Origin: Spirochaetota bacterium
Lineage (GTDB): Bacteria; Spirochaetota; Spirochaetia; Treponematales; UBA12059
NCBI GenBank assembly: GCA_026398615.1
Contig: JAPLSN010000031.1
Coordinates: 62,001 to 126,000, forward strand
Length of the DNA stretch: 64,000 nt
Direction of reading: 5' to 3'
The position numbers and the translations under genes were made by a program. Below, piece by piece: positions 1 through 18,840 of this stretch; positions within the stretch are counted from its first letter, which is position 1, and each line of letters begins with the position of its first letter. Under the pieces are notes generated by a model, which had not been told where the DNA came from, did not search any database, and saw only the letters and a list, made by a program, of their open reading frames with translations.

Positions 1-1611
1 GAGGCGGCAGGGCCTGGGCTCCCCCAGCTGCGTCCTGAGCCTCGTCGAGATCTCGCCGATCTCCGCGCGCCGTTCCTGCGCGTCAAAAGCCTGCCTGAGG
101 CGCCTGACGGGTAGGTCACCTTCCCGCTCCTCCGTGTACACCGCGTCCGTGAGGATGCAGCCTTCCCTGCCGGGACGATCGAGCCCGAAGAAATCCCGCG
201 CCGCGTTGTTCCCTTCGATGAAGCCCAGGTTCCCGTCCAGGAGGGCCACGGGGTCGGACGTTCCTTCGAAGAGGCTGCGGTACCTGTGCTCGCTCGCCGC
301 GAGTTTCCCGCTCGTTTCGGTCAGCGTGCGGATCCGTTCCTCCAGGTTCTGGTTCAGCCCCTTGAGCTGGCCGTGGAGGAATCCGAGCCGGTTCGCGAGG
401 ATGAGGCCGCCGATGAGGAGGTTGCCGATCGGCGTCCCTGCGAGCGAGCGCAGGTAGATCCGTCCCAGGGAAGGCCGGCGCCCATCCATGACCGGCCGCT
501 TCCAGCGGCGGTACCCGTCCCTGAAGAATCGCCCGAGGATGTCGTATCCGAGATAGTACAGGGCCATGAGGAGTCCCGAGACCTGCCACACCCTGAGCAG
601 GTCGTGCGCGAAGGCATCCGGCGTAAGGGCTTGCGCGATCGCGAGGAAGGCGCAGAGGACGGCGTAGACCTTGCTCACCGACGCGGCCCGATTGTCGTTC
701 AGATTTTCGAGGAAAGCCCCGACGAAGGGGAGGATCAGGAAGAGGCTGCCCAGCTCGATATGGAAGAGCAGGTCGCTGTCCGGAACGAAGAAGTACACGG
801 TGTGGGTGCGGGCGAAGAGATAGATCGCGAGATCGATGGAAAACAGGCCGTAGAAGAGATTGTGCCTGTCCTGGGGACGGACGAAGAAAATGAAGATGTG
901 GTACAGGCCGATGAAGAGGTAGAGGCCGATCAGCGCCACCGGCCAGAGTTCCGCATTCCGGCGCTGGATGAGCTCGTAGGTCCCGACGAAGTACGGTTCG
1001 GCCTGGTGGAGGCCGGCGGGGGGGGAAGGTCGGGTCGGCCACGATGCTGATGACGATGAGGTTGGCGCTCGGGCGGAAGAGCGACCCGTCGACCGGGAAA
1101 TAGATGTCCCGGACGTACGGTGCTTCGCTATCCTGCCGTTCGCGTCGAGATGGATTTCCGAGCGTATCTTCGTTCCGTTGAGGAATATTTCCCAGTCGTC
1201 GCCCAGTGCGGCGAAGTGGATTCCCGGTACCAGCGGAGCTTCCGTGCTTCCTTCCCGTCCCCTTTTGAGGAAGGCGGCCATCTCGGCCCCGATCGTGAAG
1301 GGGATGGCGTAGGTGAACTCCATCTCGGGGTAGTTCGCCAGGGAGAAGAACGGCCGTTTCGCCACGCCCGCGAGGCCCAGCTCGATGGGTCGGGCGTATC
1401 TTCCCGCATTGCCGGTGGCGGGGAAGATCTTCCAGTCCGGGACTCCCGTCGGCATCCGGTTCTCGGCGCCGGGTTCGAACCCAGTACGGATGTAGAGGGG
1501 AAATTCATTGAGGTTGATATAGAGAGGGTCACCGGATGCCTGGAGCGGCAGGACAGCGGCCAGCAGGACGAGGACGGCCAACGCCGGGGATCGGGGGAGC
1601 TTCAGGTTCAT
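1..1611 (-). CDS. 7TM-DISM receptor with PAS domain, 3' end outside window, two compensating frameshifts
   Basis: Signal-transduction membrane protein, incomplete at the window edge. The start at 1611 gives a signal peptide (MNLKLPRSPALAVLVLLAAV), then a periplasmic 7TMR-DISMED2-like beta domain (about residues 28-195), about seven hydrophobic helices (about 205-400, with IGLYLFIGLYHIFIFF near the beginning), a coiled coil (LNQNLEERIRTLTET) and a PAS-like segment (RYRSLFEGTSDPVALLDGN). The output domain is not visible. The starting frame is open to position 1, but between about 1136 and 1020 the family-like sequence (DIYFPVDGSLFRPSANLIV) lies in another frame. One base seems to be missing near 1131-1138 and one extra in the C8 tract (G8 on +) near 1018-1025. 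Either the assembly carries two errors or the gene is a variant; the receptor assignment itself is firm. Confidence 0.8.
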   Translation of the reverse strand, partial: MNLKLPRSPALAVLVLLAAVLPLQASGDPLYINLNEFPLYIRTGFEPGAENRMPTGVPDWKIFPATGNAGRYARPIELGLAGVAKRPFFSLANYPEMEFTYAIPFTIGAEMAAFLKRGREGSTEAPLVPGIHFAALGDDWEIFLNGTKIRSEIHLDANGRIAKHRTSGTSISRSTGRSSARAPTSSSSASWPTRPSPPAGLHQAEPYFVGTYELIQRRNAELWPVALIGLYLFIGLYHIFIFFVRPQDRHNLFYGLFSIDLAIYLFARTHTVYFFVPDSDLLFHIELGSLFLILPFVGAFLENLNDNRAASVSKVYAVLCAFLAIAQALTPDAFAHDLLRVWQVSGLLMALYYLGYDILGRFFRDGYRRWKRPVMDGRRPSLGRIYLRSLAGTPIGNLLIGGLILANRLGFLHGQLKGLNQNLEERIRTLTETSGKLAASEHRYRSLFEGTSDPVALLDGNLGFIEGNNAARDFFGLDRPGREGCILTDAVYTEEREGDLPVRRLRQAFDAQERRAEIGEISTRLRTQLGEPRPCRL

Positions 1612-1710
1612 GGGCAATATTTTATCACATTCATGCCGGTCGCGCCATCGTCATCACGGGGTTTCACCAGCCTGCCAGGGAAAGGATAACCTGCCTGACT
1701 TGCCCGTCGG

Positions 1711-2028
1711 TTACACCATGGGTTCGCTATAGAGATCGCTGCCGCAATTGGGACAACCACCGTTGCTTATGAATCTATCTTTGGATCCTTTCCATCCGCA
1801 ATTCTGGCAATAAGCGATCCCCGAGGGACGCGATCTGAAAACCGGTTCAAGGAGGATCGCCAGGAAGACGATCCCCAGCAACAGCCAGATCCCCTCGGCC
1901 ATCCAGCCTTGCTTTACCGGCATAACCCGTACCAGCAGTTTTTTCAGCCAATTGAACCCGAATCTTTCCCCCGTAAAACCGACCGCGCCGAGAAAAACCC
2001 CGATTCCAGAGATTATCACGCGAATCAT
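1711..2028 (-). CDS. small membrane protein with C-terminal zinc ribbon
   Basis: A 105-residue protein of unknown function. The N-terminus is hydrophobic (MIRVIISGIGVFLGAVGFTG), a second transmembrane helix lies at about residues 42-62 (GIWLLLGIVFLAILLEPVF), and the C-terminus has two Cys-x-x-Cys knuckles (YCQNCGWKG and GCPNCGSDL), a rubredoxin-like zinc ribbon presumably on the cytoplasmic face. A GGAGG ribosome-binding site sits just upstream of ATG 2028. The gene is divergent from the DUF4139 gene, and the 220-bp gap between them would hold both promoters. It is not part of an obvious operon. The zinc-ribbon call rests only on the cysteine spacing; no catalytic domain is present. Confidence 0.75.
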   Translation of the reverse strand: MIRVIISGIGVFLGAVGFTGERFGFNWLKKLLVRVMPVKQGWMAEGIWLLLGIVFLAILLEPVFRSRPSGIAYCQNCGWKGSKDRFISNGGCPNCGSDLYSEPMV

Positions 2029-2251
2029 ATGATGCCTCCTTCATGTCGAAGATCCTGGATGTTGGACTTGCATTTGTCAATGGTAAAAACCAATCATGTC
2101 AATGTTCCTGTGCAGGTATTCCATCGGATCGGCTTTCCGGATGACCAGGGGGAATACCGCACAACGAAGGGCCCGGGCGTGGAGGGAGGCTTTCCCCTAT
2201 CGCCTGCACTATACTCTTGGGCATGACATCACGTTGCTCGAGGAGTGCGCC

Positions 2252-4315
2252 ATGCGTCGTATCCGTTCGTCCGTTCGTTTCCTTGCCTTGATCGTCGCCT
2301 TCGCGGCCGCCAGCGCGGTCACCGTTTTCGCCCAGCAGTCATCCGGGGCCGCCCCGACCGAGCTGCCCGTCACCCGCGTCGTGCTTTTTTCATCCGGCGT
2401 GGGGTATTTCGAGCATCGGGGGAACGTGACGGGGGACGCCGTCGTCCTCCTTCCCTTCGGCGTGGCCGACGTCAACGACGCCCTCAAGTCGCTCGTCGTC
2501 AGGGACGAGGGTAGCGGGTCGCCATCGGTGAGTTATCCGTCGCAGGAGAGCCTGGACCGCGCCCTCAAGGGTTTCCGCGTCGACCTTTCGGGCGCGCCCA
2601 GGGTGGCCGACATGCTTGCCCGCCTGCGCGGAGCGGAGATCTCGGTGGACGTGCCCGCGACCCTCACGGGGCGCATAGTCGGCGTGGAACAGCGTCCCGG
2701 CAAGGAGCCGGGAACGACGGTCCAGTACCTCGTCATCCTGACGCAGGACGGGGTGCGTGCGCTCCCGATGGACGGCATCGCCGCGTTCAGGTTCACGGAC
2801 AGGCGCATCACCGACGATTTCGAGCGGGCCCTCGCGCTTGTGCTGGCGGCGCAGGACACGCAGCGCCGCGTGCTGGAACTGAAGCTCCCGGGCACCCAGA
2901 AGCGCGAGGCTGCGGTCGGCTACGTCGTCGCCGCCCCGATCTGGAAGGCGTCGTACCGCCTCGACCTCGCGGGCGCAAAGCCATATTTCCAGGGCTGGGC
3001 GATCGTCGACAATCCGACGGAAGAGGACTGGAGGAACGTGCAGCTTTCGCTGGTGAGCGGCCGCCCCGTTTCCTTCATCCAGGACCTCTACAGCCCGCTC
3101 TACGTCGAGAGGCCGGAAATCCCGTTGGCGATCGCCGGGGCCGCGAAGCCGAGGTCCTTCGAGTCGGGGCTCGCGGGAGCGGGGGACGAGGAGTCGTACG
3201 CGGAAGAGTACGAGAAGGACAAGGCCTACGGGGCGGCGCCGCGCTCGGCCATGGCCCCGTCACCCTCCCCGTCGGCGAAGGCCGCCTCGGGCGGGGTGAG
3301 GGGGAGCGATGCGCCGTCCGAAGCGATGATGGTGCCGAGGGAATTCGAGACCGCGCGCGCGAAAGCCGCCGGGGAGCTCTTCGAGTTCACCGTGAAGAAA
3401 CCGGTGACGCTCGAACGCAGGCGGAGCGCGATGCTCCCCCTCGTCGCCGCCGAACTCCAGGTCGAAAAGGTTTCTGTCTACGCACCCGACAAGGGCGCGC
3501 CCATGGTCGGAGCCAGGATCACGAACAATACGGGGATGAAGCTGCCCGCCGGGCCGATCACCGTATTCGACGGCGGCGTATACGCGGGCGACGCGCTCGT
3601 GGATTTTCTCCCCGAGAAGGACAAGCGCCTCATCGTCTATGGCGACGACCTTTCGCTCATCGCAGACTCCCTGATGACGTCAGCTGAAGAGACGATCGGC
3701 GTCGCGATATCGAAGGGCGTCCTCAAGTTCTCGAGGAGGACGACCTGGACCAGGACGTACAACTTCAGGAATTCGGGCGCCATAGCGAAGCGCGTCGTCA
3801 TCGAGCATCCCGTCATCGGGGGCGCCGAGCTTTTCGAGCCGAAGGCGTACGAGGAGAAGGCGGGGAACGTGTACCGCTTCAGCCTGCCGGTCGCCTCGGG
3901 GGCGCAGGTGTCGTACGTCGTGAAGGAACGTTCGCCGAGGACCGACGCGGTCCTCATCGGGAACCTGGGCAACGACGCCCTCGTCATGTACTCGTCGAGC
4001 AAGGAGATCCCTCCCGCCGTGCGCGACGCGCTGAAGAAGGCGACCGACCTCAGGCGCAGGCTGGACGACGCGAAGCGCGCGTTGGCTGACCTTCAGGCAA
4101 GGAAGAACGACCTTTCCACGGAGCAGGGGCGGATCAGGCAGAACCTGGACGCGGTCGGAAGCGATACCTCCCAGGGCCAGCAGTACCTCAAGAAGCTGCT
4201 CGACGCGGAGAACGAGATCGAGGCGGTTTCGAAGGGCATCCTCGAAGCCCGCAAGGCGGCCCAGGACGCCCAGACCGCCTACGAGACCTACCTGGCCAAC
4301 CTTTCCATCGAGTGA
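2252..4315 (+). CDS. DUF4139 domain-containing secreted protein
   Basis: A 687-residue exported protein. The ATG at 2252 is preferred to in-frame starts back to 2096 because it begins a clean signal peptide (MRRIRSSVRFLALIVAFAAA...VFAQQ) and follows a TATACT hexamer at 2210-2215. The mature N-terminus (RVVLFSSGVGYFEHRGNV) is the typical opening of DUF4139/MuiA-like proteins. A Pro/Ala/Ser-rich low-complexity linker lies at about residues 330-350 and a coiled coil closes the protein (about 590-680, repeated KRALADLQARKNDL-type heptads). The family's molecular role is unknown; a periplasmic or cell-surface location is inferred. It stands alone, flanked by divergent and tandem unrelated genes. 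Confidence 0.88.
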   Translation: MRRIRSSVRFLALIVAFAAASAVTVFAQQSSGAAPTELPVTRVVLFSSGVGYFEHRGNVTGDAVVLLPFGVADVNDALKSLVVRDEGSGSPSVSYPSQESLDRALKGFRVDLSGAPRVADMLARLRGAEISVDVPATLTGRIVGVEQRPGKEPGTTVQYLVILTQDGVRALPMDGIAAFRFTDRRITDDFERALALVLAAQDTQRRVLELKLPGTQKREAAVGYVVAAPIWKASYRLDLAGAKPYFQGWAIVDNPTEEDWRNVQLSLVSGRPVSFIQDLYSPLYVERPEIPLAIAGAAKPRSFESGLAGAGDEESYAEEYEKDKAYGAAPRSAMAPSPSPSAKAASGGVRGSDAPSEAMMVPREFETARAKAAGELFEFTVKKPVTLERRRSAMLPLVAAELQVEKVSVYAPDKGAPMVGARITNNTGMKLPAGPITVFDGGVYAGDALVDFLPEKDKRLIVYGDDLSLIADSLMTSAEETIGVAISKGVLKFSRRTTWTRTYNFRNSGAIAKRVVIEHPVIGGAELFEPKAYEEKAGNVYRFSLPVASGAQVSYVVKERSPRTDAVLIGNLGNDALVMYSSSKEIPPAVRDALKKATDLRRRLDDAKRALADLQARKNDLSTEQGRIRQNLDAVGSDTSQGQQYLKKLLDAENEIEAVSKGILEARKAAQDAQTAYETYLANLSIE

Positions 4316-4323
4316 TGCGGCAA

Positions 4324-4353
4324 CGCGGCAGGGAACGGGAGTTTCCCGCCGCG
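4324..4353 (+). terminator. possible hairpin terminator after the DUF4139 gene
   Basis: Just past the stop at 4315, CGCGGC-a-GGGA (4324-4334) pairs with TCCC-GCCGCG (4344-4353) around a 9-nt loop, with one bulged base. No T-run follows, so intrinsic termination is uncertain. Confidence 0.35.
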
Positions 4354-4562
4354 GCGAGCGAATCGGCGTATGGCACCGAGCGCCGGCGGACGGTCGCCCC
4401 TGGCTTTCCAGGCCAGCGCAGACAGGCAATGGGCTTCCGACGGAGTGAACTTGAGCCTATCGACGCCGATTTCCGCGAGTGCACTGCGGGCTCGCAGCCT
4501 GGCGGCGGGGAAGGGTGCTACAATTCCCGTGGGTAGCCACATTATCCATCCAGGGAGTATCC

Positions 4563-5849
4563 ATGATGAAAGGGACCAAATCCGGAATCGCGTCCGCTTT
4601 CACGATCGCTCTTGTACCCGCGTTCGTTTCCTGCGCGCAGGTCAAACCCCCGGAACCTTCCCCGCAGGCGGGATCCGGGTGGGAAACGGTCGCGGAGACC
4701 TTCGTCGAAAAGGCCGACACCACCCACGCCTGCCTCGTCATGGTGGACGGAACGACCGTGTTCGAAGCCTACGCATGGCCCTGCGGCCCCGGCGACAGGC
4801 ACAAGCTGGCGTCGTTCACCAAGAGCGTACTCTCGGTCCTCGTCGGGATCACGGTCGGCGAAGCGAAGATTCCATCGCTCGACGCGAAGCCGGGCACGCG
4901 GTTTTACTACAATTCCGGCGCGTCCCACCTCCTGTCGGGCATCCTCCAGAAGGACGTGGGCAAGACCGCTCGCGACTACGCGGCGGAAAAGCTTTTTTCA
5001 CACCTCGGCATCACGGACTTCTTCTGGGGAGCCGACCGGAACGGCGTCACCATGGGCTGCAGCGGCCTCCAGCTCACGGCGAGGCAGCTTGCGACGATAG
5101 GCCGGCTCCTGCTCGCCCGGGGCGAGTGGGACGGCAGGCGCATCGTGAGCGCGGCATGGATCGACGAGTCGACGACGAAGCAGGTCGACACGTCTTCGGG
5201 TCTCGCGGGGCGGTACGGCTACGGCTACCAGTGGTGGATGAACCCCTCGGGCGGTTTTTCCGGCCGGGGTTACGGCGGGCAGTACCTTCTCGTCGACCCG
5301 AAGCGCAAGATCGTGGCGGTCTTCTTCGGCTCGAATTTTGACGACGATTTCTTCATGCCCGAGAGGCTTCTGGCCCAGGCCATGGTCCCCGCCGCCGAAA
5401 AGGGAGGCGCCAAGGTCGATGTGGCTCTCGCGTCCCGGCTGGCGGCGCTCGCGCAGGCAGCCGGCAAGGGGCCGACTCCCGTTCCGCCTGCGCCGCTCCC
5501 CGCGAAAGCGGCGGCCATCTCGGGCAGGCGCATCCTGCTCTCCGACGGATCGGCATCCGCCTTCACGTTCCCGAAAGCGGACGAGGCCGTGTGGACCATG
5601 GAGACGGGCGGGTCCCCGGGCTCCTTCCCCATGGGCCTGGACGGCCGTTTCCGCTCGGGCTTCCTCGGAGAGGCATTCGGGCTGGCGCCCCCGAACCCCG
5701 TCTTCGCGCGCGGCGGATGGGAAGGGGAGGACGTCCTCCGCGCCGAGCTGACGCTCTCGTACGACTCGTACACCTACGTGTTCCGTTTCAGGTTCCCCGC
5801 AGGTGGCACCGTCGAGGAGAGCTGCTTCGTGCCGGAACTCGGGCAGTAG
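4563..5849 (+). CDS. beta-lactamase-fold serine hydrolase, lipoprotein, internal segment missing
   Basis: A 428-residue class C beta-lactamase/penicillin-binding-protein family protein. The ATG at 4563 (or 4566) follows AGGGAGTATCC and starts a lipoprotein signal (ALVPAFVSC), so it should be membrane-anchored. The SxxK nucleophile motif is SFTK (about residue 85) and the YxN motif is YYNSGAS (about 117). In relatives these motifs are separated by roughly 90-110 residues that include a LLTMTSGL-like helix; here only about 30 residues lie between them and the chain jumps from KIPSLDAK to PGTRFYYN. That suggests an in-frame internal deletion, so activity is doubtful. The rest (LTARQLATIGRLLLARGEWDG and the C-terminal beta domain) is intact. 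Transcribed alone. Confidence 0.85.
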   Translation: MMKGTKSGIASAFTIALVPAFVSCAQVKPPEPSPQAGSGWETVAETFVEKADTTHACLVMVDGTTVFEAYAWPCGPGDRHKLASFTKSVLSVLVGITVGEAKIPSLDAKPGTRFYYNSGASHLLSGILQKDVGKTARDYAAEKLFSHLGITDFFWGADRNGVTMGCSGLQLTARQLATIGRLLLARGEWDGRRIVSAAWIDESTTKQVDTSSGLAGRYGYGYQWWMNPSGGFSGRGYGGQYLLVDPKRKIVAVFFGSNFDDDFFMPERLLAQAMVPAAEKGGAKVDVALASRLAALAQAAGKGPTPVPPAPLPAKAAAISGRRILLSDGSASAFTFPKADEAVWTMETGGSPGSFPMGLDGRFRSGFLGEAFGLAPPNPVFARGGWEGEDVLRAELTLSYDSYTYVFRFRFPAGGTVEESCFVPELGQ

Positions 5850-5894
5850 ATCGAGCGCCTGTCCGGAAAGGTGGAATGAAGGGACGCGATTATT

Positions 5895-5943
5895 GAGCCA
5901 ATCTAAAAAGGCGGTTACTTCAGAAATTGGCTTTTCAGTTTCT
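5895..5943 (+). terminator. possible terminator hairpin
   Basis: GAGCCAAT (5895-5902) can pair with ATTGGCTT (5936-5943) across a long loop, followed by a short T stretch. It lies between the convergent serine-hydrolase gene and the FlaA operon. The stem is short, so support is weak. Confidence 0.3.
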
Positions 5944-6032
5944 CACGCTTCTTGTCTTTTGGGCGAAGCGCTAAGAAACCTGCGCGGGAACAAGGTTGCT
6001 CTTTCAAAAGCCGTCTGACTTTCAGAAGAGCC

Positions 6033-6788
6033 TCATTTATTCGCGTATTCCGGCACCGGAAATTCCCGGACGAGTTTCACCGCTTCGCCGCAATACACCG
6101 CCATGTCGAAATCGAGCCATATCTCCCGAATGCGGATGAGCACCGGGGCATTCCCGTTTTTTGGCTTCGAGCAACAGATGCCCGCGAGCCGCCTGTACGG
6201 GAGGGATCCGGGCGCGAGCGCCACGGTCTTGAGTTCCCCGGACCTGACTTCGTCGATATATCGCGGGTTGACGTTGACCCGGAGTTCGCAGCCGGGGCCG
6301 AAGCCCGAACCGAAATGGATATAGGTTTCCTGGGCTTTTTCGTCAGCCAGGACGACGCTGATGGCGACGCCAGGGTCGCTCGACGAAGCGAGAACGCTGA
6401 CTGACTTGATGGCACCGACATTGGAAAGCAGTCCCGTGCCAGAAAAGCCCCCGATGGATTCGTCGGATGCGACGATGCCGGAGGGCGGCAGGATGGCCAC
6501 GCCGGTCGTACCCGCGGGAGCCCGGGAAAAATCGACGATGGCTTCGAGCGCGCCCGAGGGGCAGGCGGCGCTGTCCGGAGCGGCTGCCCTGATTGACGAC
6601 GATGGACCTGCCTTCGCGCCCGATGGAAGGAATACGACAACCCAGCGCGTCGGGTCCGGGGAGTACGGCGTGCCGGATTCCCCGGACCGCGGTGCAAGGT
6701 CCGAAAAATCGATGAGGGTTTGCTGGTCAGAATGGGCGACTCCCATCGCGAAGCACGCGAGTACAAGTGCCGTCATGGTCCGTTTCAT
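6033..6788 (-). CDS. FlaA-family flagellar filament outer-layer-like protein
   Basis: A 251-residue exported protein, last gene of the five-gene operon 10330->6033. The ATG at 6788 starts a signal peptide (MKRTMTALVLACFAMGVAHS). The body follows the order of treponemal FlaA: LIDFSDLAP near the mature N-terminus, a glycine-rich GTGLLSNVGAIKSVSVLAS block, YIHFGSGFGP, then NPRYIDEVRSGELKT and a final IREIWLDFDMAVYCGEAV, all of which I match to FlaA (for example NNPSYISDVRS and FKDVKIIYDKAV). FlaA coats the periplasmic flagellar filament in spirochaetes. It lies 14 nt after the preceding stop. Divergence from canonical FlaA means a sheath role is probable, not proven. Confidence 0.75.
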   Translation of the reverse strand: MKRTMTALVLACFAMGVAHSDQQTLIDFSDLAPRSGESGTPYSPDPTRWVVVFLPSGAKAGPSSSIRAAAPDSAACPSGALEAIVDFSRAPAGTTGVAILPPSGIVASDESIGGFSGTGLLSNVGAIKSVSVLASSSDPGVAISVVLADEKAQETYIHFGSGFGPGCELRVNVNPRYIDEVRSGELKTVALAPGSLPYRRLAGICCSKPKNGNAPVLIRIREIWLDFDMAVYCGEAVKLVREFPVPEYANK

Positions 6789-6802
6789 GGTTTTCCCCCG
6801 CC

Positions 6803-7360
6803 TCACTGTATCAACCGGGAGCCGCCGCGAATGGACAGCTCGCCGATGAATACCACGCAATCCCCGATGGGAACGGAAGCATCAAGGTAGATCACTAGGG
6901 CCTTGAAGGCCAGACCTCCGAATTTGCCGTTCACGGTGTGCGTCAGGCGCCGGGCGCCGGGAAAATTGGCGGTGCCGAGATCGAATTCGTGGCTGCGCCC
7001 CGAGCCATCCCCGAGCAGCACGGCCACCCTGAAGGGAAGGTCCGTGCCATAGACGGTAAGGCTCAATTCCTTCAAGGTCCGGTATTCCGGGTTTTCCCGG
7101 CTGGTTGCCGCCTGAACCAGGTAGTACACGGTTCCGTCGCCGGGGGGCTTTTCGAGGAGGATGCCGAGAAACCTGCCATCGCGTTCCGTATCCGTGATTT
7201 TCAGGAGCGGCGTGAACGCGGGATCCGAATAGCCGTCCGCAACCACCTTCCAGTCCGACGGATTCCCGGTAAAAACCAGTTCGAGCGTTGCATCCTGGGC
7301 CGGGAGGCGGCCGCCCGCAGCGAGCAGGAACAGCAGGGCAAGAGCCGGATGCCGTGTCAT
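6803..7360 (-). CDS. short FlaA-like exported protein
   Basis: A 185-residue protein with a signal peptide (MTRHPALALLFLLAAGGRLPAQ) and a single FlaA-like beta domain: DWKVVADGYSDPAF, KELSLTVYGTDLPFRVAVLL, HEFDLGTANFPGARRLTHTV and a closing CVVFIGELSIRGG. These correspond to the FlaA pattern of a hydrophobic strand with a wide-tryptophan or tyrosine patch, an internal GNLAFNGW-like turn and a terminal FFDQLKY-like strand. It is shorter than canonical FlaA (about 230-350 residues). ATG 7360 overlaps the stop of the upstream HEAT gene, so translation is likely coupled. Assignment is by pattern only. Confidence 0.65.
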   Translation of the reverse strand: MTRHPALALLFLLAAGGRLPAQDATLELVFTGNPSDWKVVADGYSDPAFTPLLKITDTERDGRFLGILLEKPPGDGTVYYLVQAATSRENPEYRTLKELSLTVYGTDLPFRVAVLLGDGSGRSHEFDLGTANFPGARRLTHTVNGKFGGLAFKALVIYLDASVPIGDCVVFIGELSIRGGSRLIQ

Positions 7361-8724
7361 CGTGTAACCCCGTAGACAGCCAGGAGATTCCCGGCCGCGA
7401 CGACGCGCAGGAGGGGGTTATTGTCTTCCCGCATGAAATCCCGCAACAGGAGTGAGTGCTTCCCTTTTCCCTGCCGGCCGACAAGCTCCAGCGCCGCGGC
7501 CCGAACGAGGATGTCCCCGTTTCCGGACAGGAGCGTGATCACGCGATCAGGCATGCGTGCCTCGGGCCCCGCCAGGAATCCGCGGAGAGCGATTCTCCCC
7601 AGGTTCGGATCTTCCCGGTCCAGGAGGAATTCCAGGCAAGCCGTGCGTTGTATCGAGTCCGGTGAATCAGCGACGATACCGGCATACCGGTACTGAACCC
7701 CTGCGGGGAACGTCGACAGCAGGTCCTGGAAATCCTTCAGGTGCTTTTTCTCCGGCACGCCGGCCAGGAAAAAAGCGAGGGCATTGTTCACGACCGTGGA
7801 CGGGAATACGGCGGACGGCACGGGATTCCGCTCCGCTTCGGCGGGGACGGGAATGCCGTATTTTCTGGCGGCGTCGGCATCGAGAGAAAGACGCCCGTTC
7901 CCGGGAGTGACGCCCGTCGCGACCACGGTACGACTCAGTTTCAGGCGATACAACAGCGCCTGGAAAAGCAGTTCGTCCAGCGTGAAGGACCGGGAATCCG
8001 GTTCCCTTCCCTTCAGGATGCCCGCACGATCCTGCATCGCATACACGATCCTGTCGAGCGGGAGCTTTTTCGCCTTGAAGTCCAGATAGAGCCGGCTGTA
8101 CTCGTCGACGCGGACGTCCCGGTCCCAGGGATAGAACACCAGGAGATCCAGATACCTGCGGTCCTTCGTTTCGAGATATTTCCGGGACAGCAGGCAGGCC
8201 CCGAAGGCGCCCTTCCGGCCACCGTCCAGGCCGAGCAGGAAGAGGTTGGAAAATTGCGTTATCTTGTCGTAACCTATCATGGCGAAAAGGCCCTGCGGGC
8301 CGATCCAGTTCCAGATGGATTCCTCGTTGGCGCGGAGCCAATCCAGGGTGCGTGCCGGATCAAGGCTGAACAGGGTTTCAAGGGCGGCATCCCTGAACAG
8401 GGCAAAGCCGGGGGTCGTGATCTCGGAGCCTGGATCCTGGAAGAGCGCCAGGACCGGCTCGTAGGCCAGTTTCGGTGGAAGATGCCGCAGCATGCGGATC
8501 GCCGCTTCCTTGACAAGGTGGTTTCCGGAATCGAGACCCGCCAGGACGATGTCGCGCGCTTCGGGCAGGCAGGCAGTGATGGTTTTTTGCTCTTCGGCGG
8601 AAAGCGTGCCGCCCGCCTGCGCCCATGCCGATGCGCCCGACAGCGCCAGGAGGGTTGCCAGGAACAGCGCGCCGGAACGACCATGCATCCAGGCGGGGGA
8701 TTCGCGAGGTTGCGGCCTTTTCAC
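7357..8724 (-). CDS. exported HEAT-repeat-like protein in the FlaA operon
   Basis: A 455-residue helical protein. The frame opens with GTG at 8724, overlapping the preceding stop; ATG 8688 gives a better signal peptide (MHGRSGALFLATLLALSGAS...WAQ). HEAT-like helical pairs follow: EARDIVLAGLDSGNHLVKEAAIRMLRHLP, FRDAALETLFSLDPA, and at the C-terminus DRVITLLSGNGDILVRAAALELVGRQG and NPLLRVVAAGNLLAVYG. The middle (about 150-330) is less repetitive. HEAT scaffolds usually bind other proteins, so a partner of the FlaA-like proteins made by the same operon is a reasonable inference. Translationally coupled to both neighbours. Confidence 0.7.
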   Translation of the reverse strand: MKRPQPRESPAWMHGRSGALFLATLLALSGASAWAQAGGTLSAEEQKTITACLPEARDIVLAGLDSGNHLVKEAAIRMLRHLPPKLAYEPVLALFQDPGSEITTPGFALFRDAALETLFSLDPARTLDWLRANEESIWNWIGPQGLFAMIGYDKITQFSNLFLLGLDGGRKGAFGACLLSRKYLETKDRRYLDLLVFYPWDRDVRVDEYSRLYLDFKAKKLPLDRIVYAMQDRAGILKGREPDSRSFTLDELLFQALLYRLKLSRTVVATGVTPGNGRLSLDADAARKYGIPVPAEAERNPVPSAVFPSTVVNNALAFFLAGVPEKKHLKDFQDLLSTFPAGVQYRYAGIVADSPDSIQRTACLEFLLDREDPNLGRIALRGFLAGPEARMPDRVITLLSGNGDILVRAAALELVGRQGKGKHSLLLRDFMREDNNPLLRVVAAGNLLAVYGVTR

Positions 8725-9386
8725 CAGGTACCTTCCATGGAATCGACCTCCCGGTCGGTCGCGAAGAAAAAGTCAGCCGTGGCGTCCATCAGGTCGAGAC
8801 CGAACGTCATCGCCGGGCTTCCCCTGCAGGTCATGACGAAGCCGGCGACGGACAGGCCGAGCTGTCCCGGCAGGTACCCGTCCAGCTGGGGTATCCCGGG
8901 AGGGATGGATGCCGAACAGTACTTGACGCCCGGTTCGGCACGGACGGAAACGGGAAGCTCGTATTCGATGCCATGGATGTCGCGCACGATCAGCGCGCAG
9001 GAAACGGCGCCCGATTCCGGCCCCGTCATCCAGAACGAGACGAGCTTGACGATCCCGGGAACCGACGGTCGCACCGGGAAGAGCAGGCGGAAACGCCTGG
9101 TCCCGACGCCGCCGGGAACTGCGACGCGGAGGAACGAGGTGTTGCTCCTGCCGGGATGCTCGCGTTCCTGGGCGGCAGCGAGTTCGGGACCCGCCGGGAG
9201 CCATGACAGCACGATGTCCTTCGAGTCGGCCGACAGGCTTCTGCCCGGCTCGTTCTCGATCGCGTCGAGCACGATGTTCTTCAGGGACTCCCGGCCGTTG
9301 CCCGCCCCGGTCATGTCGATATCCTGGCTTGTCGCAAGCGATGCGGCGCAGGCCGCGAGCAACGCGAACGCGAATGCCTTTTTCAT
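8721..9386 (-). CDS. FlaA-like exported protein
   Basis: A 221-residue protein; ATG 9386 overlaps the upstream stop (ATGA) and starts a signal peptide (MKKAFAFALLAACAASLATS). An upstream in-frame extension to 9647 lies inside the preceding gene and is rejected. FlaA-like features are IVLDAIENEPGRSLS near the mature start, IVKLVSFWMTGPESG, CALIVRDIHGIEYELPV (compare LEILVRDAQGRVHTLP of FlaA), LSVAGFVMTCRGSPAM and a terminal strand. The domain layout is that of PF04620. Two cysteines in the mature part are unusual. Third gene-pair member of the operon with four-base overlaps on both sides. Confidence 0.68.
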   Translation of the reverse strand: MKKAFAFALLAACAASLATSQDIDMTGAGNGRESLKNIVLDAIENEPGRSLSADSKDIVLSWLPAGPELAAAQEREHPGRSNTSFLRVAVPGGVGTRRFRLLFPVRPSVPGIVKLVSFWMTGPESGAVSCALIVRDIHGIEYELPVSVRAEPGVKYCSASIPPGIPQLDGYLPGQLGLSVAGFVMTCRGSPAMTFGLDLMDATADFFFATDREVDSMEGTW

Positions 9387-11195: not shown

Positions 11196-12665
11196 CTAGT
11201 CGGCGGCCGCGGCGAACTCGATCGGATCGTCGTGATGGGCGCCGATCGCCTTGCCCTTCGAGAAGTACTCCCTGACGCTCGCTTCGATGAAGGTCATGAA
11301 ACCCGGGAGCAGGACTTCCTCGAAATAGCGTTGCCGTTCGCCGCGGCGCCGGGATTCGTCGAAAAGAGCGTTCATCTCGCGGATCCGGTCCTTCATCCAC
11401 GCGTCCCATGAATCGAAACGCTCGATGTCGCCAATGACCGTCTTGAGCGGCTTCAGGGAATCCTGGATCTTCCCGAGCGCGTTGAGGAGCTGGAATAGGC
11501 TGACGGATGATTCGATTTTCTCCAGGACCCCCCGTTCGTCCCCGCCGCGCTCCTCGACGAGCTTGCGGAATTTCCCGGGCAGGAGGAACCTGAAGATCTC
11601 AGCCTTCCTGATGGCGATCTCGTGTTCGCGGAAAAATTCCTCGAAGGCGTGGCTGACGAGGCGGTTCCCCCGGTAGTACTTGATGAGGTTGATGATCGGG
11701 CCGATGCCCTCTTCGCCCTTCTCGAGGCAGAATTCCACCTGGCGCCATACGTCCTCGGGAAGGTCGGGATTCGCCTGGACCGACCACGACGGAAACATCG
11801 CCTGCCTCTTGTCCGAAAGGATCACCTCGCGGTAGGCAAAGAGCTCGTCGCGCCTGATCGTCTGGTAGAATCCGGATGCCTTGGACCGGAAGGTTTTATG
11901 GTAGGTTCCTACGAGATCGGTCCGTTCGAGCGCTTCCATGAGGCGGCGCGAAATCCTGATGCCGTCGGCGGGGGCGGAAGCTTCCATCCTGCGGGCTTCG
12001 ATCACGGGGACGCCGATGACATCCCATTGCTTGGCGCCTTCCGGTCCGAAGCTGCCGACGCACACGTCCCCGAGGGCCGCGCCGACGCGGATGCGGACCT
12101 GGAACATGCTGGAAACGCTGGATGCCAGGGCCATGCTCTCCCGGAGTGACCTGATGATGAGGAAGGCCTGGGAGAGCGCCGTGCGCGCGTCCGGATCGAT
12201 GTCGGAAGGTATGAAATCGACGTCGGCCCGGTTGAAGAGCCGGCAGGATTCCTGTATCTCGACGCAGGTCTGGAAGAGGAGCCGCGCGATGAGCGTTTCT
12301 GCCTCTTCGGGCGCGAGGCCGGAACAGGTCGGATCGATGAAACCGCCGAAATGGAACATGATGGAATCGCCGGCGATCTTGTTCAGGTAGCCGCCCCGCT
12401 TCTTGAGCGTGAGGAGGAAAGCGGTGTAGAGGCCGTTGAGCAGGCGCTGGTTTTCCCGCGGGGAGAGCCAGGTGGACATGTACGAATAGTCGACGATATC
12501 GGCGAATCCGACGCCGACGCAGGATTCATCCGGGGCGTCGGGGATATTCCCATGCTCGACGAGGAACTCCTCGAGCTGGCGGTTCAGGAAGGTTTCGGCG
12601 ATTTTCGCCTTGAGAAGGTCTTCGTCGGAGAGACCGTCACGGGCGTTTTTTTCTGATTGAATCAT
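11196..12665 (-). CDS. class III adenylate/guanylate cyclase-domain protein
   Basis: A 489-residue soluble protein. ATG 12665 is chosen because GGAAGGAAAC lies directly upstream; 12680 and 12710 are poorer. The cyclase domain (about 35-250) shows the first metal-binding aspartate in VGFADIVDYSYM, the second in IAGDSIMFHFGG, and WDVIGVPVIEARRM, where the transition-state arginine is kept but the usual asparagine (V-N-L-A-x-R) reads isoleucine. The second half (about 290-489) is helical with no recognised domain and contains DSLKPLKTVIGDIERFDSW. No membrane segment. cAMP production is the family role, but the Asn loss makes activity or specificity uncertain. Confidence 0.82.
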   Translation of the reverse strand: MIQSEKNARDGLSDEDLLKAKIAETFLNRQLEEFLVEHGNIPDAPDESCVGVGFADIVDYSYMSTWLSPRENQRLLNGLYTAFLLTLKKRGGYLNKIAGDSIMFHFGGFIDPTCSGLAPEEAETLIARLLFQTCVEIQESCRLFNRADVDFIPSDIDPDARTALSQAFLIIRSLRESMALASSVSSMFQVRIRVGAALGDVCVGSFGPEGAKQWDVIGVPVIEARRMEASAPADGIRISRRLMEALERTDLVGTYHKTFRSKASGFYQTIRRDELFAYREVILSDKRQAMFPSWSVQANPDLPEDVWRQVEFCLEKGEEGIGPIINLIKYYRGNRLVSHAFEEFFREHEIAIRKAEIFRFLLPGKFRKLVEERGGDERGVLEKIESSVSLFQLLNALGKIQDSLKPLKTVIGDIERFDSWDAWMKDRIREMNALFDESRRRGERQRYFEEVLLPGFMTFIEASVREYFSKGKAIGAHHDDPIEFAAAAD

Positions 12666-12858
12666 GTTTCCTTCCGTCATGCGGCTTGGGTTCCCCTTCG
12701 TCGGGCGCAATCGTCAGGCCGATGGTCGCTCCGTCTTCGGGCGGGCGACGCACGACCGCTCATGCATAGTGTACGAAATCCGGCGCCGGTTTGGAAGCCC
12801 ACCGCGCGGAGATTTTCGGGATGTTCGCATCGTTCGCGCTGGCCGCCGCGGCGTACCG

Positions 12859-13710
12859 TCAGGGCAACCTGAACACCTTCACGGTCATCCTGACGTCGAC
12901 GACCGGACGGTCCTTCTTCCCCGTCGCGGCGTCGGCGATCCGGAGATCGGTGTTCGAAAAGTTCGCCCTGCCGGCCTTGATCGACGTGAGGTTCGAGCCC
13001 GACAGGTCGGCTCCCCCCAGATCGGCGGCGGTCAGGTCGCTGCCCGCGAGCATCGCCCCGCGGAACGTCGTTCCCCGCAGTCTGGCGCCGCGCAGGTCGG
13101 AGCCGGGGAAGGAGCCTCCGGCCAGCGAGAGGTAATTGAGCCGACCGCCGGGGCATGTACCCGTCTTCCTGAATCGCGCCGCGTCCTCGGCCGAGTAGGG
13201 TTCGAATTCCCCGCCGTCCGGACCGATAGTCGAGGCATCCACGACGATCGAATCGAGCCTCGTGTCGTTGGACACGGCGTTCTTCAGGTTGGCGCCTGAA
13301 AAGTCGGCGCGATCCAGGTCGCAGGACAGGAAGGCCGTGTTTCCGAGATCAGTGCCGCGGAAATCGCAGGATGTGAAGTTCGAATTCCTCAGGTTGCATG
13401 CGTGCAGCGAAGCCCCGGCGAAAAAGGCGCCCGAGAAATTCGTTCCCTTGATCTGATCCCCGAGGCCCCACACCGAGGCTTTCGTGAAATCCGCGCCGGA
13501 CGCGTCGGCCCCCGCCAGCGTGACGTCGTAGAGGTCGGCATGCGCGAAGTTCGCCCCGGAAAGCTTCGCGTTCCTGAAATCCGCGTTCTTGAAGTCGGCG
13601 TTGAAGAACCGGGCTCCCGCATAGTTCCTGGCGGCGATCGCCGCCGGGCGCTTGCCGGCTCCACGACACGCATCTATAGTTACGGTGTCATCCGCGCAGG
13701 AGGTTCCCAA
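12859..13710 (-). CDS. pentapeptide-repeat protein
   Basis: About 280 residues dominated by A(D/N)LXX-type pentapeptide repeats forming a right-handed quadrilateral beta helix: FFNADFKNADFRNAKLSGAN, ADLYDVTLAGADASGADFTK and, after a non-repeat insert (about 150-190, EFEPYSAEDAARF), LRGARLRGTTFRGAML and GSDLTAADLGGADLSGSN. The start is unresolved. The only upstream start in frame is TTG at 13710, which shares its base with the ATG of the divergent DUF2804 gene and lies over that gene's promoter. ATG 13673 is in another frame, so a small 5' frameshift is possible. Role unknown; such proteins are scaffolds or DNA mimics in known cases. Confidence 0.8.
   Translation of the reverse strand: MGTSCADDTVTIDACRGAGKRPAAIAARNYAGARFFNADFKNADFRNAKLSGANFAHADLYDVTLAGADASGADFTKASVWGLGDQIKGTNFSGAFFAGASLHACNLRNSNFTSCDFRGTDLGNTAFLSCDLDRADFSGANLKNAVSNDTRLDSIVVDASTIGPDGGEFEPYSAEDAARFRKTGTCPGGRLNYLSLAGGSFPGSDLRGARLRGTTFRGAMLAGSDLTAADLGGADLSGSNLTSIKAGRANFSNTDLRIADAATGKKDRPVVDVRMTVKVFRLP
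13652..13680 (+). promoter_or_regulatory. sigma70-type promoter of the DUF2804 gene
   Basis: TTGCCG (13652-13657), a 17-nt spacer, then TATAGT (13675-13680), 29 nt before ATG 13710. An AGGAGG ribosome-binding site follows at 13698-13703. Confidence 0.6.
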
Positions 13711-15820: not shown

Positions 15821-16138
15821 TCACCGCATGCGGTTCAGTTCATCCTCGCTCAGGATATCGCCGTGGAGCTTGCGGGTGCAGTCGGGGCAGATGCCGAGGC
15901 TGAAGCGGGCGTCCGAGATGGGCTTTCCCTTCTCTCCGACGGTCTCCCGGAGTGCGCGGGTCTTGATCCTCACCTGGCGCCGCTGGAAGAAAAAGCTCCC
16001 GGCGAGGAAGAGGAAGGTGACCATCAGCGAGGCCGCCCGTACCCGGGCCATCGTGGCGCGGAAGTTGATGTCCGACTGCCCGTACTGGATCCAGCGCCGG
16101 TTGATGGCCGCACGTTCCTCCTTCGATATTTTCTGCAT
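15821..16138 (-). CDS. small membrane protein with C-terminal CPDC motif
   Basis: A 105-residue protein: an N-terminal basic helix (MQKISKEERAAINRRWIQ), one transmembrane helix (ASLMVTFLFLAGSFFF, about 36-51), a basic segment and a C-terminal FSLGICPDCTRKLHGDILSE. The CPxC plus KLHGD tail resembles the short zinc-knuckle-like ends of sensor or response-regulator proteins, but no second Cys pair is present. Function unknown. It is convergent with the MBL gene, and 15622-15820 between them holds no gene. Confidence 0.6.
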   Translation of the reverse strand: MQKISKEERAAINRRWIQYGQSDINFRATMARVRAASLMVTFLFLAGSFFFQRRQVRIKTRALRETVGEKGKPISDARFSLGICPDCTRKLHGDILSEDELNRMR

Positions 16139-16263
16139 GCCTTGACCGATAATGTCGTCGCCGATGGTTAATTGCCGGAATCAGCCGACGAGAGATTGCC
16201 GGTTTCCCGTCCAAAATAAGGGGCCCACCTCTCGCCGTTTTCTGGGATTATCCTCGCTGGCCA

Positions 16264-17415
16264 TCAGTATTTCTCCAATAAATATAAATATTCTTTAACA
16301 TGAATATCGCGATTGAATAAATTTCGACTACCACGAAATGCATTATACTTTGTCTCCAGAACAGTCAATTTACCGTATTTCTTGAGTAATTCAACCATTT
16401 GATCCAGAGAAATATGCCCTTCTGAATTAAAGGATATCAAGAGATACTTTGCTTTTAGTTTGTGAACCAATTCAGATAATGCAAGGTAGGCAGATTTTTT
16501 TCTATTATATTGTGAACGGTTCCAGTCATCGGGAATACCTGAGACATTAGATATTGACTCAGGTTTTTTGTAATCCAATAAAGCATTCAGCATAAAGTAA
16601 TTTGAACCGTATGGATGCTGATTATATGGCGGATCCAAATAGGCAACATCTACTTCAGGCAGAATTTCACAAATAATATTGGAATCTCCGTTATAGACAT
16701 GGCAATCACAATTGTAATTACTGAATATTGGCTGAGGTATGATTATATTGCCGGTTATTCTAAATAATGCATCTTGGTTTTTGCCCCCAAATTGACCGAT
16801 TCCAGTATCTGTATTCTTATAAAATCCTTTAAAAACACCAGATGTATTTGCATGAATGGAAGCTTCTGACAGGAGGGGTGCAAGTAGGAATTTTTTGTAG
16901 TAATCAGGAACGGATTCAATCAACTGGCGAGCCGTATCCAGATATTTGGCATTCCTGGTTGTAAAAAAAACTCTTTCTCCTTCCTTGATCTCCTTGTCAT
17001 CAAAGGGAGCATACATTTCAGCAATAAAACCAGAATGAAAAGGTTCATGTTCAAGTTGATATTTTATTTCATTGAATATTTCATTGAACTTAGTGTATTC
17101 AAAATCGGCAATATTTGTTAAGTAACATTGATTGATAATTGTTGCATATTTTTCTAGGTCATTGGTATACAGGGTCTCTGAATATTGCTTAAGATATCTG
17201 GAAACAACACCAGAACCGGAAAAAACATCAAAAGTATCCAATTTGTGCTTTCCGAGCCTTTTTCTGATTATTTCAAGCCCATTTCCAATAAAATCCAACA
17301 AAGTACGCTTATTTCCAATATATGTTATTAATTGCTCTGTAAGAAAATCGGAATTTTCAACCGGTGTTTCATTTGTATCTATTGCAAGCAACTCAAGGTG
17401 AATAGACACTTGCAT
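16264..17415 (-). CDS. D12-class DNA adenine methyltransferase, solitary, AT-rich
   Basis: A 383-residue N6-adenine DNA methyltransferase. The motif order is X, I, IV as in the D12 class: LITYIGNKRTLLDFIGNG (about 29-46), TFDVFSGSGVVSRYLK (SAM binding, about 60-76) and VAYLDPPYNQHPYGSNYF (catalytic DPPY, about 255-272). Length suits a type II orphan enzyme. The gene is visibly AT-rich, unlike both neighbours, with the shift beginning near 16255 and ending near 17480, which points to transfer. No restriction endonuclease gene is next to it. ATG 17415 has GGGGG immediately adjacent; GTG 17409 would have better ribosome-binding-site spacing. Recognition sequence unknown. Confidence 0.92.
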   Translation of the reverse strand: MQVSIHLELLAIDTNETPVENSDFLTEQLITYIGNKRTLLDFIGNGLEIIRKRLGKHKLDTFDVFSGSGVVSRYLKQYSETLYTNDLEKYATIINQCYLTNIADFEYTKFNEIFNEIKYQLEHEPFHSGFIAEMYAPFDDKEIKEGERVFFTTRNAKYLDTARQLIESVPDYYKKFLLAPLLSEASIHANTSGVFKGFYKNTDTGIGQFGGKNQDALFRITGNIIIPQPIFSNYNCDCHVYNGDSNIICEILPEVDVAYLDPPYNQHPYGSNYFMLNALLDYKKPESISNVSGIPDDWNRSQYNRKKSAYLALSELVHKLKAKYLLISFNSEGHISLDQMVELLKKYGKLTVLETKYNAFRGSRNLFNRDIHVKEYLYLLEKY

Positions 17416-17517
17416 CCCCCAATGTAAAACTATCGGAAAAGATTTTCATTTTTTATCAATAATGACTTCTGCAGCACATTCTCCATATTTTGCGCGAAGC
17501 GTCCATCGAACAACCCG

Positions 17518-18840
17518 CTAGAACGTTATGCAGGATCCGACCGCCGCGCTCCAGCCGCCATCGCGCCCGGATTCGTAGACATCGCCGCCCCCGCCTGCGT
17601 TCGAGGAGATGGATGCGAACATTTCGAAACCCTGAAGCGGCTTCCAGCGGACGCCTCCGGAAACCTGGGCGGACGCGTCGACCGGCGAGTAAAGGCCGCG
17701 GAGGAAGCAGAACCATGCGTCCGACTGCCAGGTGGCTTCGCCGAAAGCGGATGCCGCATACGGGTCGGGCGCGGACGAAGCTCCCGGCGTCGGCATCGAG
17801 GGTGCAGACGGCGATCGGGGAATCGGCGAAGCGTCCCAGGTTCCGAAGGGCCGTACCCGCCCCTCGACCCGCAGCCCGAACGTCCCCGCGCCGAGCGCGA
17901 TATCGTGGTAGATCCCCCCGCTCGTCTCCCAGGTCTTGCCCGAACCGAGCGGGTCGTCGTCGGGCAGGATCACCGAACTCGACAGCTGGAGGTCCGCGAG
18001 GAAGCGCCCCTGGACCGACGCGTAGGGCCGCCAGGTTCCCGCGTCAGGGTCGCGGAGGCAGCCGGCTTCGACCTTGACGCCCGCCGGCTTGGAGTAAACC
18101 CGCGCCGCGCAGCGAACGCTTTCCAGGCCTGCCTGTTCCGGCTCGGGAGCATCTGGCACGCCCAACGATTTCGCGATCGAGGCGGACAGCGGGAATTCGG
18201 GGGGCAGGAACACGGCTTCCGCGAATGAAAAGTCACCTAGCGGGACGTAGAGCGACGCAAGCCAGGCGCTGGGGTCCGAGATCGTTTCCGCGGTCAGGTC
18301 CGCGTCCGCGGCGAAACCGAACACGACGTCGCCTGAGTTGAACACGCGGCCTTCCCCCCAGGTGCCGGTCGTCTTGCCCATAGTGAGCCGCACGCCGGCG
18401 AGCCTCGCCTTCACGAAAGCCTTGCGGATGCCGAAGGATGCCGCGTTGCCGAAGAGGGCTTCGACGACAACCTGGCCTTTCACGTCGCGCGATCCTTCCG
18501 AATCGAACGAGAACCTCGCCGTTCCGTAGGACGCGGTCGTCGCGTCGCCGTCGGTTCCACGCCTGCAAATCATGAAGAAATCCGCCTCCGTCGTTACCGG
18601 GGCGGCGCGGCTTTCCATCGCACCTGTGTCGCGTGCGCCCGTGACGACGGTCGCGGGATCTTCAGCCGGGGCATCGGCTTCGGGCGCCGTCCCGACGCCG
18701 ACGACTTCGATGCCGGCCGGCATGTCCGCGCCCGGCTCGATCGCGTCCTGCGCGACCGCGTCGCGGGCGAAGGCGGCCAACGCGAGGAAGACGAGCGCCG
18801 CGACGGACGCGACCGACTTCCGGAGGGGCTTTCTCACCAT
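17518..18840 (-). CDS. outer-membrane beta-barrel protein of the TetR-controlled Lol-type operon
   Basis: A 440-residue exported protein: signal peptide (MVRKPLRKSVASVAALVFLALAAFARDAVA), an acidic low-complexity stretch, then alternating amphipathic strands such as GVRLTMGKTTGTWGEGRVFNS and WLASLYVPLGDFSFAEAVFL, ending in SAAVGSCITF with a C-terminal aromatic residue as in barrels. The TGTWGEGRVFNSGD turn resembles the KQTVGWGISRFYQ turn of the barrel at 31639-33063, so the two are probably paralogues. ATG overlaps the end of the LolA-like gene. Likely the outer-membrane end of the exporter encoded by this operon. Confidence 0.75.
   Translation of the reverse strand: MVRKPLRKSVASVAALVFLALAAFARDAVAQDAIEPGADMPAGIEVVGVGTAPEADAPAEDPATVVTGARDTGAMESRAAPVTTEADFFMICRRGTDGDATTASYGTARFSFDSEGSRDVKGQVVVEALFGNAASFGIRKAFVKARLAGVRLTMGKTTGTWGEGRVFNSGDVVFGFAADADLTAETISDPSAWLASLYVPLGDFSFAEAVFLPPEFPLSASIAKSLGVPDAPEPEQAGLESVRCAARVYSKPAGVKVEAGCLRDPDAGTWRPYASVQGRFLADLQLSSSVILPDDDPLGSGKTWETSGGIYHDIALGAGTFGLRVEGRVRPFGTWDASPIPRSPSAPSMPTPGASSAPDPYAASAFGEATWQSDAWFCFLRGLYSPVDASAQVSGGVRWKPLQGFEMFASISSNAGGGGDVYESGRDGGWSAAVGSCITF

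Follow-up and report, generated by a model that had tools for sequence, protein, structure and literature searches.

The window, the whole stretch of 64,000 nucleotides analysed here, is part of contig 14 (211,681 bp) of a Spirochaetota genome assembled to 3.38 Mb in 43 contigs and 99% complete. A maximum-likelihood two-breakpoint fit delimits within it an AT-rich block of ~1.2 kb (16263-17491), with a GC content of 0.338 inside and 0.668 outside and a log-likelihood gain of 190. Among the other 1152-bp stretches of the window outside the masked neighbourhood, none falls below 0.494, and the sharply bounded island of the initial annotation (16255-17480) is borne out by the fitted edges. According to the segmentation, this foreign block is a single gene with a short leader: the coding sequence of a solitary D12-class N6-adenine DNA methyltransferase (MTase) of 383 aa (16264-17415, minus strand), whose stop codon coincides with the block edge, and ~76 bp 5′ of its start (17416-17491, minus strand). 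This upstream stretch is AT-rich as well, travels with the gene and is probably its promoter or leader; a promoter scan of it returned chance-level sites only and no convincing sigma-70 site.

The block lies between two intact genes of the same strand, neither of which is interrupted. It follows the stop codon of a 440-aa upstream gene (17518-18840, minus strand) and lies 5′ of the start of a 105-aa downstream gene (15821-16138, minus strand). Both encode proteins with no Pfam or PADLOC match, and neither gene had usable homologues in 57 other genomes when an empty site was sought by synteny. The features expected of mobile-element cargo are absent from the block: Pfam and PADLOC detected neither phage genes nor an integrase or transposase within the island or adjoining it, and its ends carry no target-site duplication or terminal repeat, the longest shared direct repeat being 7 bp against a shuffled mean of 6.5. 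Further along the window (11196-13710), a nucleotide cyclase (Guanylate_cyc, with weak similarity to Pycsar cyclases) adjoins a pentapeptide-repeat protein.

The MTase reading frame is open from an ATG start, and its product matches MethyltransfD12 (PF02086) with 69.9 bits against a cut-off of 22, as well as the Type II and orphan MTase models of PADLOC (best score 400 bits). The conserved domain starts at about residue 20. Every invariant column of 22 aligned sequences is present, DPPY included, the catalytic motif reading DPPYNQHPY. The protein can be assigned to the D12 class on its score above the Pfam gathering threshold and its intact SAM-binding and DPPY motifs. Foldseek places its AlphaFold2 model (mean pLDDT 81.6) closest to Escherichia coli Dam (4rtj) and DpnM (2dpm). 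The gene had been called a complete adenine methyltransferase, and to judge from sequence and predicted fold it is an intact D12-class N6-adenine MTase, predicted to be catalytically active. A foreign gene could still have proved normal in its codon use, but 43 host-like ORFs average 0.774 (sd 0.103) in GC3 where this gene has 0.29, and its codon “surprise” lies 4.3 sd above that of the same ORFs (z = 4.3).

EcoRI-family endonucleases and their remnants

The initial annotation found no nuclease partner, and for the EcoRI family this can now be extended to the whole genome. PADLOC detected no nuclease or restriction-modification (R-M) gene among 9 neighbouring proteins, the weak matches being the nucleotide cyclase and permeases, and neither PF02963 nor an alignment of partner endonucleases had any match in the 99%-complete assembly. 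The locus therefore does not hold a complete EcoRI-family R-M system, no EcoRI-family nuclease is encoded in trans, and within this scope the solitary status of the gene stands.

Searching for the nuclease partners of its nearest relatives, as had been suggested, did reveal a candidate. On the Paracoccus marcusii plasmid pCP157_17, an MTase of 46% identity is directly followed by an EcoRI-family endonuclease, which scores 60 bits with Pfam EcoRI (PF02963) and matches EcoRI structures at E 9e-15. An EcoRI-family endonuclease also adjoins an MTase 63% identical to the window’s in a Stahlbacteria MAG. The endonuclease profile was applied to 153 loci, made up of the window, 23 relatives, the best 80 of 586 genome stretches, 48 viral contigs and the plasmid; it matched in 23, always in a gene adjoining the MTase. 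Viral contigs, near-duplicates among them, account for 20 of these 23 loci; the enzyme is truncated in L093 and cut by the contig end in L171. All 14 partner endonucleases that were aligned carry the PD..ExK and GNAxER residues unchanged. MTase relatives are encoded by 48 viral contigs, and the endonuclease-MTase neighbourhood, in either gene order, occurs in 20 of these 48 and in 5 of 390 genomes of the order. One viral contig, L167, carries two such pairs in inverted orientation (3298-5108 and 7474-9257).

The endonuclease itself is found in 13 of the 390 genomes. Five have an intact enzyme adjoining an MTase copy (G161, G189, G203, G262 and G327), and two of them, G327 and G262, combine this complete pair with a second MTase copy on another contig. 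It is truncated in G181, the source of L093; the enzyme of G033, G040 and G060 is EcoRI-like but of a different kind, and no MTase of this family lies within 1.5 kb of it; the remaining four have broken genes or fragments. The family resembles EcoRI-family Type II systems in the endonucleases that adjoin its members, with their PD..ExK and GNAxER residues, but differs in that no such endonuclease is present in this assembly and in that the window MTase is of the D12 class, whereas M.EcoRI belongs to another Pfam family.

Partners of other types were considered as well. PADLOC was applied to 184 neighbours of 99 solitary loci, covering the 25 most frequent of 43 and of 72 families. Among the matches listed were one Type II endonuclease, in L067, and one Type IV enzyme; L035 and L089 each have a Dam-like gene as a further neighbour bearing MTase motifs. 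The L067 endonuclease was set aside as a partner because its own MTase directly follows it. Both lie in an AT-rich insert beside the solitary MTase (4934-7095), and different R-M genes accumulate at this one site.

Some loci retain traces of the lost enzyme. In L093, the endonuclease frame opens at the MTase stop codon but is interrupted by a stop 17 codons on, with the remainder of the enzyme beyond it, whereas L080, 91% identical to L093 at the DNA level, keeps a 38-codon 5′ stub of the same endonuclease. For the window and for all but one of 99 solitary rows (L092, whose contig ends at the MTase), making 99 loci, we compared the 200 bases 3′ of the gene by score with endonuclease N-termini, alongside 352 control stretches. 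Fossils of the endonuclease 5′ end, scoring above the control maximum of 53, were found in five loci (L035, L080, L036, L112 and L104). Such fossils in several loci indicate that the nuclease was lost several times in the MTase family. The window copy scored 30 against a control mean of 27.2 and that same maximum, with no recognisable endonuclease remnant in these 200 bases; it was presumably orphaned before it arrived. In the window, the MTase stop overlaps a downstream ATG (TGATG), which is similar to the endonuclease arrangement; the peptide that it would begin does not score above controls, and we do not count it as a remnant.

That one family includes complete systems alongside endonucleases in partial decay, 5′ stubs and clean orphans makes it a concrete case of how a solitary MTase originates. 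Oliveira et al. 2014, in the part of their study that bears on this point, found that solitary MTases in general seldom derive from the decay of complete systems (PMC4176335).

Distribution and movement of the gene

The window gene proved to belong to an orphan family that spans the order and whose ancestral nuclease partner can be identified, a context that the initial annotation had missed. Homologues at E ≤ 0.001 are present in 312 of 390 genomes of the order; 68 of these matches are weaker than 1e-80, leaving close homologues in ~244 of the 390. The gene is near-ubiquitous in two families of the order. Of 148 genomes sampled across the class, 41 match at E ≤ 1e-80. In the window’s own family (f1), a close homologue occurs in 4 of 23 genomes, the window’s counted; 17 have distant relatives only and 2 have none. 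In most of the 17, the place of the close homologue is taken by a distant relative of 550-610 aa (33-41% identity) with a long C-terminal extension and host-like GC, as at L044-L050 from f1 genomes and G051. A contig scan with the window protein as the single query found no relative, whereas the family profile returned 586 stretches, 582 of them encoding relatives, of which the best 80 were studied as genome loci. We found no publication that describes this family as a Spirochaetia orphan, which is weak evidence of absence.

In a tree of 149 rows, from which 9 duplicate and 7 partial MTases had been dropped, the window copy falls in a set of 67 (SH-aLRT 97), where it is joined by 65 solitary chromosomal copies and one whose endonuclease has decayed. 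A more careful tree, built on 59 of these 67 rows, gives weak support to the exact position and neighbours of the window copy. It does reject a single clade for the four f1 copies (AU p = 4e-6), and for three of them with p = 0.033, so that f1 probably gained the gene more than once. Several of the copies on contigs labelled Bacteroidales, Dysgonamonadaceae, Planctomycetaceae or Bacillota (L064, L085, L081, L126, L107 and L111) group with spirochaete ones; these contigs could reflect transfer or could be mis-binned. As for the window gene, the claim of a recent acquisition holds in part. Its gain by transfer is supported by its foreign composition and codon use and by the scattered f1 copies, but “recent” can be retained only in the sense of unameliorated. 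The nearest copies, found in another family of the order, are 66% identical, and neither a donor nor a date can therefore be assigned.

Comparison of close copies points to a very small unit of movement. L080 and L093 have 1,296 bp in common at 91% identity and nothing else in their 11-13 kb; this block extends from shortly before the gene to 51 bp past its end. Similarly, L104 and L123 have 1,293 bp in common at 86.5%, and L066 and L083 1,099 bp at 87%; no other common block was found for these pairs, some loci being short. As read from these alignments, near-identical MTase copies (86-91%) can relocate without their flanks, with ~1.3 kb in common. The long flanks in common to L025 and L079, L042 and L043, and L036 and L037 reflect ordinary inheritance.

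A foreign, AT-rich composition like that of the window gene is also usual in the family. Among the best 80 of the 586 stretches, two of which were left out for short flanks, MTase GC lies more than 5 points under that of the flanks in 56 of 78 loci and more than 5 points over it in none. MTase GC3 is also lower than that of neighbouring ORFs, with a mean difference of -0.107 over 81 loci, whereas 473 control ORFs average -0.000 (sd 0.069; p = 2e-15). GC-rich versions of the gene exist (0.64 in L031 and L034), and AT-rich coding is therefore not forced by the protein. In four close groups, made up almost entirely of solitary copies (one group includes L093 with its broken endonuclease), dN/dS is 0.07-0.18 across 17 pairs. 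Such ratios show purifying selection on solitary copies, so that the MTase is maintained without its nuclease.

Solitary MTases as such are known; what is unusual in this family is the order-wide spread, the identifiable lost partner and the mobility of the bare gene. A close parallel is provided by the “roving” MTases of the Bacteroides fragilis group, described as orphan Type II MTases that move between genomes (PMC10333322). In what that paper reports, many of these are tied to mobile elements or prophages, whereas the unit in the window’s family is the gene with ~0.1 kb of flank.

Predicted recognition site and function

We predicted the recognition site by analogy with two chromosomal 6mA MTases, AamA of Acinetobacter baumannii and Cj0208 of Campylobacter, which is a solitary MTase. 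L199, an A. baumannii gene between ribD and riboflavin synthase that we take to be the probable AamA orthologue, is a D12 protein and aligns full length with the window’s family at 34% identity. Both MTases have a published AATT-core site: Cj0208 (M.CjeNI) is reported to make RAm6ATTY, a Campylobacter coli homologue being annotated as a FokI-type methylase (PMC3526280, PMC4687069, PMC4889913), and AamA, termed an orphan, was assigned GAATTC or TTTRAATTYAAA (PMC10483419). On the nuclease side, EcoRI residues Asn141, Ala142 and Arg145 are described as contacting the AATT core (PMC4081073); in our own reading of the numbering, these belong to the GNAxER loop of the partner endonucleases. The window MTase is thus predicted to recognise an AATT-core palindrome, most likely GAATTC or RAATTY. 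This is only a prediction, as AamA is distant where compared (through L199), L199 is only its probable orthologue, and a 39%-identical enzyme cited in the AamA study has another motif (PMC10483419); given such low identity to characterised homologues, it could be wrong. GAATTC occurs 26 times in the window against 23.4 expected, and this lack of depletion speaks neither for nor against the site.

Taken together, we consider it likely that an EcoRI-family Type II R-M system which lost its endonuclease left this gene as its modification half, and that the gene moves among Spirochaetia chromosomes as a bare unit of 1.2-1.3 kb. In this scheme, loss of the endonuclease from an EcoRI-type system would leave a solitary MTase, whose gene would then pass between chromosomes with almost nothing attached. 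The window copy would be expressed and would methylate the second adenine of its AATT-core palindrome genome-wide. It may be kept because the mark protects the host from EcoRI-type systems of phages and plasmids, because it serves gene regulation, or both. We favour protection: as EcoRI-type systems occur on viral contigs and plasmids, an MTase of matching specificity in the chromosome would weaken their attack. A bolder version, to which we give only tentative credence, is that the ~1.25-kb gene acts as an epigenetic “vaccine”, passed bare among Spirochaetia and near-fixed in parts of the order, which would confer immunity to element-borne EcoRI-family systems and create a shared AATT-core methylome. 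The predicted 6mA mark would extend over much of the order, host-associated treponemes included, and, if real, would affect the acceptance of foreign DNA by these bacteria.

The main rival holds that the MTase is a domesticated housekeeping regulator whose mark controls genes or the cell cycle and for which protection is incidental. Dam, CcrM and CamA are lineage-wide orphan MTases of this kind, and the window’s family resembles them in being widespread in the order, near-ubiquitous in two of its families and under purifying selection with no endonuclease. Loss of the orphan AamA was moreover reported to slow A. baumannii growth in some media (PMC10483419). However, a settled housekeeping gene would hardly be as patchy as the close homologue is in f1 and across the class, nor would its position shift between close relatives while its composition usually stays foreign. 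It is possible, though we doubt it, that regulation is the primary role.

That the MTase instead arrived as the anti-restriction gene of a phage or conjugative element, since deleted around it, seems rather improbable. Viral contigs do encode relatives, and phages are said to carry solitary MTases commonly, in the passages of the survey cited above that concern them (PMC4176335), but the foreign block is reduced to the MTase and 76 bp, with no mobility gene in or beside it, and other relocated copies are just as bare. A misassembled or mis-binned piece of another genome, conceivable in an assembly of 43 contigs, is very hard to reconcile with a mid-contig block that has intact host genes on both sides and the MTase stop codon as its edge, and with isolated AT-rich copies recurring in many unrelated assemblies, including the single-contig G053 and G034. 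Apart from the solitary MTase, the genome has one other D12 gene, a Dam-like MTase on contig 1 (L051, 1699-2553). Its compact cluster (80-5873) has the look of a defence locus and also encodes a 540-aa protein having a sub-threshold match to TnsA-like endonucleases, a HerA-like ATPase (2466-4523) and a 445-aa protein with no PADLOC match.
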